In this document: piece by piece, positions 3,004 to 36,407 of the stretch
Numbering within the stretch: position 1 is the first letter of the stretch
How the letters are laid out: each line of letters opens with the position of its first letter
NCBI RefSeq assembly: GCF_030811475.1
Contig: NZ_JAUSQV010000001.1
Location: forward strand, 1,635,501 to 1,699,500
DNA from: Nakamurella flavida
GTDB lineage: Bacteria; Actinomycetota; Actinomycetes; Mycobacteriales; Nakamurellaceae
Length of the DNA stretch: 64,000 bases
Direction: 5' to 3'
Program-made: the position numbers and the translations under genes
The notes under the pieces: model-generated
What the model was told of the DNA's origin: nothing
What the model saw: the letters and a program-made list of their open reading frames with translations, nothing else
Database searches by the model: none

Positions 3004-3861
3004 TCAGTCCAGCGAGATGGGGGTGATGTCGTACCGGGCGAGGCGGGCGGCGCCGCCGTCCAGCGCGGTGGTGACGCAGATTCCCTCGTCGGTGACGGCG
3101 ACGGTGTGCTCGACGTGGGCGGCGCGCGCCCCGTCCTTGGTCACCACGGTCCAGCCGTCGTCCAGCTCGCGGGTGGAGGACTTGCCCAGGGTCACCATGG
3201 GTTCGATGGCCAGCGCCATCCCGTCGACGATGCGGACACCCTTCCCACGCTTGCCCTGGTTCGGGACGAACGGGTCCATGTGCATGGCGCTGCCGATGCC
3301 GTGCCCGCCGTAGCCGCTGACCGAGCCGTAGCGGCGGCCGTCCTCGTGGGCGGCCCGGAGCACGGCGGTCTCCACCGCCTGCGAGATGTCACCGATACGG
3401 CCACCCGCGCGGGTGGCGGCGATCCCGGCCCACAGGGCGACCTGGGCGGCGAGGATCAGATCGGTCTCGGCGGCACCGGCCTCGTCCTCGGGCGGGGACC
3501 CGACGTGCAGCGACACCGCGGAGTCCGCATGCCACCCGTCCACGATGCAGCCGGCGTCGATGGACAGCAGGTCACCGTCGCGGAGCACGCGGTCGGGCCG
3601 CGGGATGCCGTGGACCACCTCGTCGTTGACCGAGGCGCAGATGGTGGCGGGGAAACCGTGGTAGCCCAGGAAGTTGGGCCGCGCCCCCGCGTCGGCGATC
3701 ACCGCGGCGACCGCGGCGTCGACGTCCGCGGTGCTGGAGCCGGGAACGGCCGCGGCGCGGCCCGCCTCGATGGCACGGGCCAGCACGACCCCGGCGGCAC
3801 GCATGGACTGCAACTCCCCGCGGGTCTTGATCTCCACGGAGCGGTCGGGACGAGCGGACAT
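3004..3861 (-). CDS. map: Methionine aminopeptidase, type I
   Basis: Cytosolic metallopeptidase that removes the initiator methionine from nascent proteins. The 285-residue product from ATG 3861 shows the pita-bread fold ligands in order: two aspartates in SIDAGCIVDGWHADSAV, the histidine of GYGGHGIGSAMH, and glutamates in LAIEPMVTLG and HVEHTVAVT. The length is near that of other bacterial type I enzymes and no N-terminal SH3-binding extension is present. It is the last gene of secY-adk-map, a conserved order in which protein export, nucleotide balance and N-terminal processing genes are co-transcribed; the adk stop is 8 bases upstream. The usual next genes infA-rpmJ-rpsM are absent; dctA converges instead. 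Confidence 0.96.
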   Translation of the reverse strand: MSARPDRSVEIKTRGELQSMRAAGVVLARAIEAGRAAAVPGSSTADVDAAVAAVIADAGARPNFLGYHGFPATICASVNDEVVHGIPRPDRVLRDGDLLSIDAGCIVDGWHADSAVSLHVGSPPEDEAGAAETDLILAAQVALWAGIAATRAGGRIGDISQAVETAVLRAAHEDGRRYGSVSGYGGHGIGSAMHMDPFVPNQGKRGKGVRIVDGMALAIEPMVTLGKSSTRELDDGWTVVTKDGARAAHVEHTVAVTDEGICVTTALDGGAARLARYDITPISLD

Positions 3862-3869
3862 CGGGAGCC

Positions 3870-4433
3870 TCAGTTCGACGGGGAGCGCCGGTGCAGGGCG
3901 GCGAGGGCCCGTTGGGTGACCTCGTCGACGCCGCCGACACCGTTCACCGCGAGAACGCGGTCGTGGTAGTACTCCAGCAACGGGGTGGTGGAGGTGTGGT
4001 AGATGTCCAGCCTCTTGCGGATGGCCTCGGGGGTGTCGTCCTCCCGGGCCCGGGAGACCAGGCGGTCCATCAGCACCTCGGTGGGGGCCTCCAGCAGCAG
4101 GACCGCGTCGATGGACTGCCCGCGGGCGCCGAGCAGCTCGCCCAACCACCGGGCCTGGTCCAGGTTCCGCGGGAACCCGTCCAGCAGGAAGCCCTCGGCC
4201 GCGTCCTGCTGGTCGAGCCGGTCGGCCACCATCGAGTTGGTGACCTCGTCCGGCACCAGGTCGCCCTGGCTCATGTACTTCTGGGCCAGCAGGCCGAGCT
4301 CGGTCTTCTCCCCCACGTTCGCGCGGAAGATGTCGCCGGTGGAGATGTGCGCGATGTCCAGCGCCTTGGCCAGTCGGGTGGCCTGCGTACCCTTGCCGAC
4401 GCCCTGCGGTCCGACGATGAGCAGCCGGCTCAC
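3870..4433 (-). CDS. adk: Adenylate kinase (short form)
   Basis: Interconverts ATP + AMP and 2 ADP. The start is GTG 4433, whose GTGA overlaps the secY stop, so the two genes are translationally coupled. The P-loop is GPQGVGKGTQ at residues ~8-17, slightly different from the commoner GPPGAGKGT; the AMP-binding region STGDIFRANV and the LLDGFPRNLDQARWL segment follow. At 187 residues it is a short-LID enzyme: the ~30-residue insertion carrying the zinc-binding LID of Bacillus-type enzymes is missing, as in mycobacteria and E. coli-unlike short forms. Middle gene of secY-adk-map. Confidence 0.96.
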   Translation of the reverse strand: MSRLLIVGPQGVGKGTQATRLAKALDIAHISTGDIFRANVGEKTELGLLAQKYMSQGDLVPDEVTNSMVADRLDQQDAAEGFLLDGFPRNLDQARWLGELLGARGQSIDAVLLLEAPTEVLMDRLVSRAREDDTPEAIRKRLDIYHTSTTPLLEYYHDRVLAVNGVGGVDEVTQRALAALHRRSPSN

Positions 4434-29489: not shown

Positions 29490-30320
29490 TCAGGGACTCC
29501 CACGCAGCACGGTCCGCCCGTCGGCCAGGCGCACCTCGACCGCCGCGATGTCCTCGGTGGTCAACGTGGTCGCCCCGTCCACCGTCGCCTCCGCCCCGGC
29601 CAGACCCAGCCAGGAGCCGGCCTGCTCGGTGCGGCCGTCGGTGCCGATGACCACGAGGTCGTAGGGCACGGACGGGTCACCACCGGAATCGGTGTAGCGG
29701 CAGGTGACCTGCACGCCCGTCCCCCAGGGTCGGGAGGTCAACGCCACCTCCGCCACCAGCGGAGCGCCGGACACCGCGGACAGCTCCACCGTCCGGACCG
29801 ACCCGGCCACCGGTGGGACGGGGTCCGGTCCGTCGAGCGCCACCGCGGTGCCGATGCCCGCGCCGACGGCGAGCACCGCCGCCGCGGCCAGCAGGACCAC
29901 CCGGCGCCGCCGCCGGTGCCGGAGCAGATCGACCCGCGCCAGCAGGCCGGGGAGCAGCCCGGGCGGCGGCTCGTCCGGTCCCCGGCCCTGGACGGCGGCG
30001 AGCCCGTCGTGACCGGTGTGGGCGAGCAGCCCGGCCACTCCGGCCAGCCGCTGCACGGCGTCGCTGCAGGCGGCACAGTCGAGCAGGTGCCGCTCGAAGC
30101 GCTGTCGCTCGGCCGGGTCGAGGGCCCCCAGCACGTAGGCCGCATCGTCGTAGCTGTGCGCGCCGTGTGCGCCGTCGTGGCCGTGCGCACCGTCGAACCC
30201 GTGCGCACCGTCGAACCCGTGTGCACTCCCGGTTCCGTGTCCGCCGTCCCGCCCGAGGGCGCCGTCCGGGCCGGTCCCGTCCGCTCCCCCGCTCCCGGGA
30301 GGGAGCCAGTCGCCGCTCAT
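29490..30320 (-). CDS. rslA: Zinc-type anti-sigma factor RslA
   Basis: 276-residue membrane anti-sigma factor that holds SigL inactive. Residues ~33-55 are an unusual His/Gly/Asp-rich repeat; the anti-sigma region follows with AAYVLGALDPAERQRFERHL and the zinc motif H78-X3-C82-X2-C85 (HLLDCAAC). A hydrophobic segment (~141-162, after RHRRRRR) would be the membrane helix, and an extracytoplasmic domain contains LTSRPWGTGVQVTCRYT and DIAAVEVRLADGRTVLRGS. The overall pattern resembles M. tuberculosis RslA closely. ATG 30320 overlaps the sigL stop (ATGA). In RslA, oxidation of the cysteine pair releases zinc and the sigma factor, which makes an oxidative-stress signal likely. Confidence 0.92.
   Translation of the reverse strand: MSGDWLPPGSGGADGTGPDGALGRDGGHGTGSAHGFDGAHGFDGAHGHDGAHGAHSYDDAAYVLGALDPAERQRFERHLLDCAACSDAVQRLAGVAGLLAHTGHDGLAAVQGRGPDEPPPGLLPGLLARVDLLRHRRRRRVVLLAAAAVLAVGAGIGTAVALDGPDPVPPVAGSVRTVELSAVSGAPLVAEVALTSRPWGTGVQVTCRYTDSGGDPSVPYDLVVIGTDGRTEQAGSWLGLAGAEATVDGATTLTTEDIAAVEVRLADGRTVLRGSP
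30183..30218. repeat. 18-base tandem duplication inside rslA
   Basis: Two exact head-to-tail copies of an 18-base unit encode the repeated hexapeptide of the His-rich segment; degenerate copies flank them. Expansion or contraction by slippage would stay in frame. Confidence 0.9.
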
Positions 30321-30871
30321 GTGACCACCCCCAGTTCCTGAAGAGCCAGCCGCAGCGCGTGCAGGCCGTAGTGCAGACGGGACTTCACCGTGCCGACCGG
30401 GATGCCCAGCCGGTGCGCGGCCTGCGCCGCGGTGCACCCGCGGTAGTAGCACTCGAGCAGCACGGCCCGGTGCTCCGCGCTGAGCCGGCGCAACGCCTGG
30501 GCGACGAGCAGGGATTCCAGGGCCGCGTCCGCGCCGTCCGGCTCCCCCCGTTCGGGGATGTCCCCGGGCAGGCTCAGTGGCCGACGCTGCGCCGCCCGCC
30601 ACTCGTCGACCACGATGTTGCGGGCCACGGTGAAGAGCCAGGAGCGGGCGGACCTGTCCTGCTGCTCCAGCACCTCCGGCCGGCGCCAGGCCCGCAGCAG
30701 CGTTTCCTGCACCACGTCCTCGGACCGGGCGCGGTCACCGCCGGTGAGCTGCAGCGCATACGCCCACAGGGCCCCGGCGTGGTCGGCGTGCAGCGCGCGC
30801 AGCAGCTCGCCCTCGGCGTCCGGACGAGCCGGCGCCGGGGCGGCGGGCGCACGCCGCGGCCGACCGGTCAC
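30317..30871 (-). CDS. sigL: ECF RNA polymerase sigma factor SigL
   Basis: 184-residue extracytoplasmic-function sigma factor. Region 2 carries SEDVVQETLLRAWRRPEVL and RSWLFTVARNIVVDEWRAA (residues ~50-93), region 4 SAEHRAVLLECYYRGCTAAQ then LGIPVGTVKSRLHYGLHALR (~131-173). The C-terminal RLALQELGV is characteristic of the mycobacterial SigL group. GTG 30871 overlaps the stop of the upstream membrane protein gene, and its own stop overlaps rslA. Two matches to the SigL-type promoter TGAACC-N16/17-CGT upstream and in the divergent direction support autoregulation. Confidence 0.93.
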   Translation of the reverse strand: MTGRPRRAPAAPAPARPDAEGELLRALHADHAGALWAYALQLTGGDRARSEDVVQETLLRAWRRPEVLEQQDRSARSWLFTVARNIVVDEWRAAQRRPLSLPGDIPERGEPDGADAALESLLVAQALRRLSAEHRAVLLECYYRGCTAAQAAHRLGIPVGTVKSRLHYGLHALRLALQELGVVT

Positions 30872-31293
30872 GACGCCCGGGTCCGCCGTTCCAGCAGGAT
30901 CCCGGCGATGCCACCGATCAGCGCGACCGCCTCGGACACCGCCCCCAGCCATTCGTTGACCCCCATGATCTGGGAGTTCACCCCGAAGAAGCCGATGGTG
31001 GCCGACAGGATGTAGGCACCCAGGGTGGCGGCGCCGAAGCCGGCGGCCAGGAATAGCGGGATCCACGACCGCCAGATCAGCAGCAGGACGCCGATCACCA
31101 GACCGGCGACGGCGTTGACGAGGAACATCGGGCCGACGACGTCGATGCTGTCGTATCCGTCGGCGGCGTACAGGTACAGGTGGACCACCGCGGACAGCAG
31201 GACACCCGCGGAGGTCAGCCCCCGGAGCACCCCGGCCAGCGGCATGGCCTCGAAGCTCACCGGGGCATCTGTGGTTCGGCTACGCACACTCAT
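30868..31293 (-). CDS. Four-helix membrane protein preceding sigL
   Basis: 141-residue hypothetical protein with four predicted membrane helices (e.g. TSAGVLLSAVVHLYLYAA, FLVNAVAGLVIGVLLLIW and AVALIGGIAGILLE). I do not recognise a named family beyond small actinobacterial membrane proteins. It is the first gene of the sigL operon: its stop overlaps sigL, and the proposed SigL promoter lies 72 bases upstream. A role connected with sensing or membrane stress is inferred from that place only. Confidence 0.7.
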   Translation of the reverse strand: MSVRSRTTDAPVSFEAMPLAGVLRGLTSAGVLLSAVVHLYLYAADGYDSIDVVGPMFLVNAVAGLVIGVLLLIWRSWIPLFLAAGFGAATLGAYILSATIGFFGVNSQIMGVNEWLGAVSEAVALIGGIAGILLERRTRAS

Positions 31294-31364: not shown

Positions 31365-31392
31365 GTCACGCCGAGCGCGGCGAAAGGGTTCA
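31365..31392 (-). promoter_or_regulatory. Candidate SigL-type promoter of the sigL operon
   Basis: Minus strand: -35 TGAACC (31387-31392), 16-base spacer, -10 CGTGAC (31365-31370). This matches the published mycobacterial SigL pattern TGAACC-N16-18-CGT. Predicted start near 31357, leader about 64 bases. Confidence 0.65.
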
Positions 31393-31472
31393 GTCAGCCC
31401 TGTGCCACCGGACCGCCCCCGGGCCGAGCAGACCACGGATCCCTGTGAATCCGGCGGGGAATTCCCTCCGGG

Positions 31473-31501
31473 TGAACCCAAACGGGTCTGTTCGACGTAG
31501 G
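31473..31501 (+). promoter_or_regulatory. Candidate SigL-type promoter of the Rieske gene (leaderless)
   Basis: Plus strand: -35 TGAACC (31473-31478), 17-base spacer, -10 CGTAGG (31496-31501). The start codon at 31509 lies only seven bases further, so the message would begin at or next to the ATG. Confidence 0.6.
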
Positions 31502-31508
31502 ACAGGGC

Positions 31509-32174
31509 ATGACCACCACGCCGCAGGTCCTCCCCCCGTCCGCCACCGACCCCGTCCCGAACGGCACTGCCCCGGCCGCATGCGCATGCCAGGGTTGCGA
31601 CGCCCACTCCGCCGGCGCCGCCCGGAACGGCACCACCCGTCGTCGCGCCCTCCAGGTGGCCGGCGCCGGTGCCGGCGCGGCCTTCCTGGCCGCCTGCGGG
31701 TCGTCCGCGACCACCGCCGCCAGCTCCCCGGCGGCCACCTCCGCCGCGGCGACGTCCGCGGCGAGTTCCGCCGCGAGCTCGGCGAGCAGCGCGGCCCCGT
31801 CCAGCAGCGCGGCCACCTCGGCGGCCAGCAGTGCGGCCACCAGTGCCGCGTCGAGCTCCGCCAGCAGCGCGGCACCGGTGAGTGGGATCGTGGCCCTGGC
31901 GGACGTTCCGGTGGGCGGCTCGGTCTCCGCGACCGCGCCCGATGGTTCGCCGATCATCATCGCGCAGCCCACCGAGGGCTCCGCGGTCGCCTGGAGCGCC
32001 ATCTGCACGCACCAGGGCTGCACCGTCGTGCCGGCCTCGGGCACCGAGCTGGACTGCCCGTGCCACGGGTCGGTGTTCGACGCCGCCACCGGGGCGGCCA
32101 CCAAGGGACCGGCCAAGACCGCCCTACCGGCGTTCGCCGTGACGGTCGAGGGCGGGCAGGTCGTCGCGAGCTAA
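31509..32174 (+). CDS. Exported Rieske [2Fe-2S] lipoprotein (twin-arginine signal)
   Basis: 221-residue exported iron-sulphur protein. The order is: a 40-residue n-region with a CXCXXC motif (Cys25, 27, 30), twin-arginine TRRRALQVA (residues 43-51), hydrophobic core and lipobox LAAC with Cys63, an Ala/Ser-only linker of about 60 residues (64-122), then a compact Rieske domain. Cluster ligands are in CTHQGC (Cys166, His168) and CPCHGS (Cys183, His186), with the disulphide pair Cys171/Cys185. Export by Tat means the cluster is inserted before translocation. No bc1-type cytochrome gene is adjacent, so it is not part of QcrA's operon; its electron partner is unknown. Divergent from the sigL operon. 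Confidence 0.92.
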   Translation: MTTTPQVLPPSATDPVPNGTAPAACACQGCDAHSAGAARNGTTRRRALQVAGAGAGAAFLAACGSSATTAASSPAATSAAATSAASSAASSASSAAPSSSAATSAASSAATSAASSSASSAAPVSGIVALADVPVGGSVSATAPDGSPIIIAQPTEGSAVAWSAICTHQGCTVVPASGTELDCPCHGSVFDAATGAATKGPAKTALPAFAVTVEGGQVVAS

Positions 32175-32307: not shown

Positions 32308-36234
<3,927 letters not shown>

Positions 36235-36407
36235 TGGTGGCACGTCCCTGTCTGTCGAAATATCAGGTGGCCGTCCGGGGCGACACCGTGGTGCGGTGCC
36301 GGCGGCCGACCGGGGTGGAGGTGGCGTCCCGGCGGGCCGGCCCACCCGTCTCAGGGGTGGACCGACCCGACCGGGTCTCCGTTCAGATCGCGGGGATCAC
36401 GGGGCGG

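Follow-up and report, generated by a model that had tools for sequence, protein, structure and literature searches.

Iron, redox and envelope roles have all been reported for the ECF sigma factor SigL of Mycobacterium tuberculosis. Its zinc anti-sigma factor RslA loses the metal on oxidation, which frees the sigma factor (PMC2877774), and the Rip1-SigL work concerns low iron (PMC10449499). Crystallography and mutagenesis place in the SigL -10 element CG followed by T-12 G-11 N C/A-9 A-8 G-7, with His54 and Asp60 of the protein setting specificity at -12 and -11 (PMC6372665). The targets described in PMC6372665 and PMC13002591 are sigL itself, pks10/pks7 and Rv1139c, with no Rieske protein among them. 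The Nakamurella flavida locus described here very probably encodes a SigL-type sigma/anti-sigma module that regulates itself; judged from their sequence, its two divergent promoters would be recognised by the sigma factor of the module.

The window (the whole stretch of DNA analysed, 64,000 nucleotides) corresponds to positions 1635501-1699500 of the contig, and the genome is one 4.32-Mb contig. The features of the locus, in window coordinates, are as follows.

29490-30320, minus strand: zinc-type anti-sigma factor gene, RslA-like, with an ATGA overlap with the sigma gene
30317-30871, minus strand: SigL-like ECF sigma factor gene, GTG start, with a GTGA overlap with the 4TM gene
30868-31293, minus strand: 4TM gene, which opens the operon and encodes a 141-aa membrane protein with four predicted helices
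31368-31392, minus strand: predicted SigL-type promoter, TGAACC-N16-CGTGAC, facing the 4TM, sigma and anti-sigma genes
31473-31498, plus strand: predicted SigL-type promoter, TGAACC-N17-CGTAGG, facing the Rieske gene
31509-32174, plus strand: Rieske [2Fe-2S] lipoprotein gene, 221 aa, divergent from the sigma operon

The GTGA and ATGA overlaps indicate that the 4TM, sigma and anti-sigma genes form one translationally coupled operon; as a correction to the initial annotation, the operon begins with the 4TM gene. Directly beyond the Rieske gene, and convergent with it, lies rpoC (32308-36345), which is also the neighbour of the sigma-Rieske locus in two genomes from the window's genus (L061, L069).

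The assignment of the sigma factor as SigL-type is well founded. The protein scores 233.3 bits against NF007227/PRK09645 as a whole-protein profile, above the curated cutoff of 202, and its best solved match is M. tuberculosis SigL (6dv9, 184.5 bits), the next full-length sigma factor scoring 54.2 bits. The -10-reading residues His54 and Asp60 of M. tuberculosis SigL align with Arg and Gln, and thus the exact -10 preference may differ between the two proteins. These positions also vary among other non-mycobacterial sigma homologues, and identity at them was not counted as a required feature of the SigL family. A correlation of sigma residue 60 with promoter base -11 was considered and dropped, since there was no clear pattern across homologues. 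The anti-sigma factor carries HLLDCAAC, an Hx3CxxC motif (zf-HC2 match, 1e-7), and one apparent transmembrane helix, judged by eye from its hydrophobic stretch.

The 4TM and Rieske genes are separated by a divergent gap of 215 bp that contains both motifs, each correctly oriented, with the two -35 boxes 80 bp apart. TGAACC-N16/17-CGT had been reported in both directions, and both copies are present, with end coordinates that were off by up to 3 bases. They fit the M. tuberculosis SigL promoter pattern as claimed, in which a TGAACY -35 box and a spacer of about 16 nt precede CGT at -14 to -12: the -35 box is TGAACC on both sides, and the spacer is 16 (sigma side) or 17 (Rieske side). The motif is not rare in itself. 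Four matches are found in the window against 1.75 expected (at least four in 13 of 100 shuffles), and the genome-wide scan, which had been proposed as a check, returned 191 TGAACC-N15-19-CGT sites, a count near chance for the bare motif. Rarity was therefore dropped as proof of the promoters; the pair is significant because of its position and orientation in the divergent gap and its recurrence at homologous loci. With exact spacers, there are 41 genome sites for N16 and 21 for N17, and nearly all of the former and most of the latter fall inside ORFs, as called crudely. In a stretch of 630 bp, TGAACC-N15-17-CGT has a background of 5%, so that chance could account for single unlinked matches. 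A wider regulon in the same genome was sought with the N16 and N17 scans and rejected, nearly all sites being in ORFs and the candidates being unconvincing singles.

L231: site before a CvpA/MarP-like gene, unconvincing
L240: site before a signal-peptidase-like gene, unconvincing
L257: site before an FtsE-like gene, unconvincing

Of the -35 variants TGAACC, TGAACT and TGAACG, the genome-wide scan covered the first, and hence underestimates the regulon.

To assess conservation, sigma homologues were collected from 297 class members; the Rieske homologues came from 61 members of the order, 346 of the class and one named genome collection. Expected counts were obtained by shuffling the intergenic DNA of these loci with dinucleotides preserved. 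At 18 loci, which are partly non-independent (seven share family f48, four are from the window's genus), a Rieske gene lies near the sigma gene. Of these, 17 carry the Rieske-ward motif (0.10 expected), 15 carry one facing the sigma-side gene (0.08 expected) and 14 carry both (0.0005 expected). The set spans at least nine families (f1, f4, f8, f18, f39, f42, f48, f50 and Nocardioidaceae). The proposal of divergent SigL-type promoters shared by the sigma operon and the Rieske gene is thus borne out by a pair conserved in most of these loci. The spacer is 16 at every linked locus, the window's Rieske promoter (17) being the sole exception. Loci that depart from the motif have TGAACG-N16-CGT on the Rieske side (L167), or TGAACG-N16-CGT (L033) or TGAACT-N16-CGT (L162) on the sigma side; L044 is the only one of these exceptions in which no motif variant was found, on its sigma side. 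Intergenic lengths at linked loci range from 173 to 578 bp and the spacer sequences have diverged, indicating that the motif is the retained element. In G340, a genome of the window's genus (L032, L061), two tandem Rieske lipoprotein genes lie beside the sigma gene, with the motif at the first only.

Just upstream of the sigma gene, the motif is found in 23 of 29 sigma homologues, also where there is no Rieske neighbour, and many sigma loci have no such neighbour. Four mycobacterial sigL-type genes carry TGAACT-N16-CGT. At the sigL genes of L010, L011, L014 and L017 (f2 g2, same order, mycobacterium-like), TGAACT-N16-CGTKTCAG lies some 87 bp upstream of where the sigma match begins, with T, not C, at the last -35 position. 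In L078 (G220, Nocardioidaceae-type), the motif precedes a gene for a CHRD-domain exported protein (3836-4321) directly upstream of the sigma gene, a further candidate target.

The motif also precedes Rieske genes without a sigma gene nearby (L046, L081 from Agromyces, L164, L171 and L185), which suggests a regulon membership of the Rieske gene in its own right. The Rieske-ward motif is absent at some sigma-linked loci (L174, L181), before some close unlinked Rieske genes (L163, L168, L169, L172, L173), and from the mycobacterial/f2 Rieske homologues checked (L104 from Mycolicibacterium arenosum, L183). The Rieske tree places most motif-bearing genes together in a group of 45 rows with loose support, and the motif is clustered on the tree relative to shuffles, at the low resolution afforded by 94 columns. 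Many distant Rieske paralogues lack the motif.

An alignment of 65 sites shows TGAACC followed by a preferred purine (G 58%, A 29%), N15, CGT, G/A (90%) and T (58%). This extended consensus, TGAACC-N16-CGT[G/A]T, is compatible with the M. tuberculosis SigL -10 element CG-TGN(C/A)AG (PMC6372665). The window's operon promoter (CGTGAC) agrees with that element at -14, -13, -12, -11 and -9, and the agreement of the Rieske promoter (CGTAGGA) is limited to -14 to -12 and -8. Base -11 is G on the sigma side and A on the Rieske side (A in 35% of aligned sites); with this A and its spacer of 17, the window's Rieske promoter is, as a predicted site, the least canonical. In seven loci including the window, the Rieske ATG follows CGT in frame after 9-10 nt (10 nt in the window), placing the expected transcription start at or within 1-2 nt of the ATG, and these species probably make a leaderless Rieske mRNA; other Rieske loci have longer leaders. 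Three loci (L034, L039, L042) have back-to-back -35 boxes forming a GGTTCA-N2-TGAACC palindrome, where competition between the promoters for a single holoenzyme may arise.

The irregular spacer and the non-G base at -11, together with the ease with which the bare motif arises by chance, could mean that only the sigma-side promoter is cognate and that the plus-strand match is degenerate, the Rieske gene being transcribed from another promoter. However, the near-universal Rieske-ward motif at linked homologues, the ATG spacing of 10 nt kept as in six other loci, and the window site being one of only four genome sites that fit TGAACC-N16/17-CGT-N9-11-ATG make this account very improbable. It could also be supposed that both promoters are used by another ECF sigma factor with overlapping specificity, as the genome has about ten sigma-like matches and ECF -35 and -10 elements overlap, with similar SigL, SigE and SigH sites (PMC4821874). 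This appears very improbable, as the motif accompanies this sigma gene from family to family, and its place directly upstream of the gene is the usual pattern of autoregulation; M. tuberculosis SigL likewise acts on its own promoter, P-sigL (PMC6372665). By analogy with P-sigL, autoregulation is the simplest reading. We hold with high confidence that both promoters are real as sequence elements, and with similarly high confidence that both would be used by the adjacent sigma factor.

The Rieske protein has a twin arginine (R44, R45), a LAAC lipobox with C63, a Ser/Ala-rich linker and the cluster ligands C166-x-H168...C183-x-x-H186. R44, R45, C63, C166, H168, C183 and H186 are invariant in the Rieske family alignment (A2). 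Also kept are the C171/C185 disulphide pair and Ser188 of the CPCHGS loop; the corresponding disulphide and loop Ser raise the potential in bc1-type Rieske proteins. The nearest solved relatives are the Rieske domains of b6f/bc1 and arsenite oxidase, with which the cluster motif C-x-H...C-P-C-H-G-S is shared. However, those are transmembrane-anchored complex subunits, whereas the window protein is a Tat lipoprotein with a Ser/Ala linker. Membership of bc1/b6f or arsenite oxidase complexes was rejected, as scores fall far under every curated equivalog cutoff (45.5 vs 250, 44.4 vs 275 and 38.5 vs 95.65 bits). From its family and export signals, it follows that the protein is a predicted envelope electron carrier.

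No Pfam or NCBIfam family was recovered for the 4TM protein in profile searches with the window protein and its homologues, three of which have weak DUF7475 matches (best 5e-4). Arg24, His38, Asn60 and Glu121 are among the residues invariant in nine aligned homologues. An AlphaFold model built from two sequences is of moderate confidence (pLDDT 78) and gave no significant PDB match. In several families, the 4TM gene either heads the operon or lies divergent beside the Rieske gene. Two genomes, Nocardioides ungokensis (L082) and G258, have it away from the sigma promoter and under a motif of its own, yet facing the Rieske gene as before. That the two genes stay paired is the best hint of a joint function of the 4TM and Rieske proteins. 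In L043 (G302), a DoxX/DoxD membrane domain is fused to a related Rieske domain; the fusion shows that Rieske and small 4TM partners occur, bearing on the 4TM protein only as an analogy.

The 4TM gene being co-operonic with the sigma gene, and sensor parts being encoded in the sigma operon in some systems, the Rieske and 4TM proteins might instead sense the signal, giving redox input to the anti-sigma factor. We consider this unlikely, as motif-bearing Rieske homologues away from the sigma gene are distributed as for a regulon target, and the sigma gene has no Rieske neighbour at many of its loci. The output reading is preferred, in which the main adjacent target of the sigma factor is most likely the envelope Rieske electron carrier, with the 4TM protein encoded in the sigma operon.

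In the mechanism we propose, an envelope or redox signal, suggested by the M. tuberculosis RslA and Rip1-SigL work, would inactivate the membrane zinc anti-sigma factor, and the freed sigma factor would bind RNA polymerase. The minus-strand promoter would then yield more 4TM protein, sigma and anti-sigma factor, making the response fast to switch on and self-limiting, while the plus-strand promoter would yield more of the Tat-exported Rieske lipoprotein. On the outer side of the membrane, the latter may serve as a one-electron carrier, perhaps together with the 4TM protein. The promoter sequences and their selective conservation, the order of the genes and the protein families are observed; the sigma-dependence, the signal, the electron-transfer role and its partner are the inferred parts of this scheme. 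A broader and somewhat doubtful extension is that the Rieske lipoprotein could be the ancestral core SigL target outside mycobacteria, forming with the new 4TM family and its invariant His and Glu an inducible path of extracytoplasmic electron transfer that serves redox repair of the envelope and was lost or replaced in mycobacteria. If the scheme is true, SigL-type sigma factors outside mycobacteria gain a target that is conserved and physically linked to them, and with the exported iron-sulphur electron carrier a specific biochemical output; the questions of what SigL senses and why it exists become directly testable in a small, self-contained module of harmless actinobacteria.

A SigL-Rieske link was not found in the open full-text literature, a coverage that excludes the primary regulon papers and the large ECF classification paper. 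The initial annotation had tentatively placed a Rieske target outside the described SigL regulon; this agrees with the open literature, the absence not being proven while Hahn 2005 and Dainese 2006 lie outside that coverage.

The module resembles M. tuberculosis SigL-RslA in sigma family, adjoining zinc anti-sigma factor, apparent autoregulation, TGAACN-N16-CGT promoter type and -10 element. It differs in the -10-reading residues of the sigma factor, and the mycobacterial sigL loci examined have no adjacent Rieske or 4TM gene, unlike the window. M. tuberculosis SigK-RskA, which drives mpt70/mpt83, is similar in combining an ECF sigma factor, a membrane anti-sigma factor and exported targets encoded nearby. 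However, SigK belongs to a different sigma group from the window protein (43 bits, vs 184 for SigL), and RskA is without a zinc motif (PMC7406223), unlike the window's anti-sigma factor. An autoregulated ECF sigma factor with an adjacent exported target is an already known kind of system; the new part is the Rieske/4TM output, and a SigL-Rieske envelope redox response is apparently undescribed.
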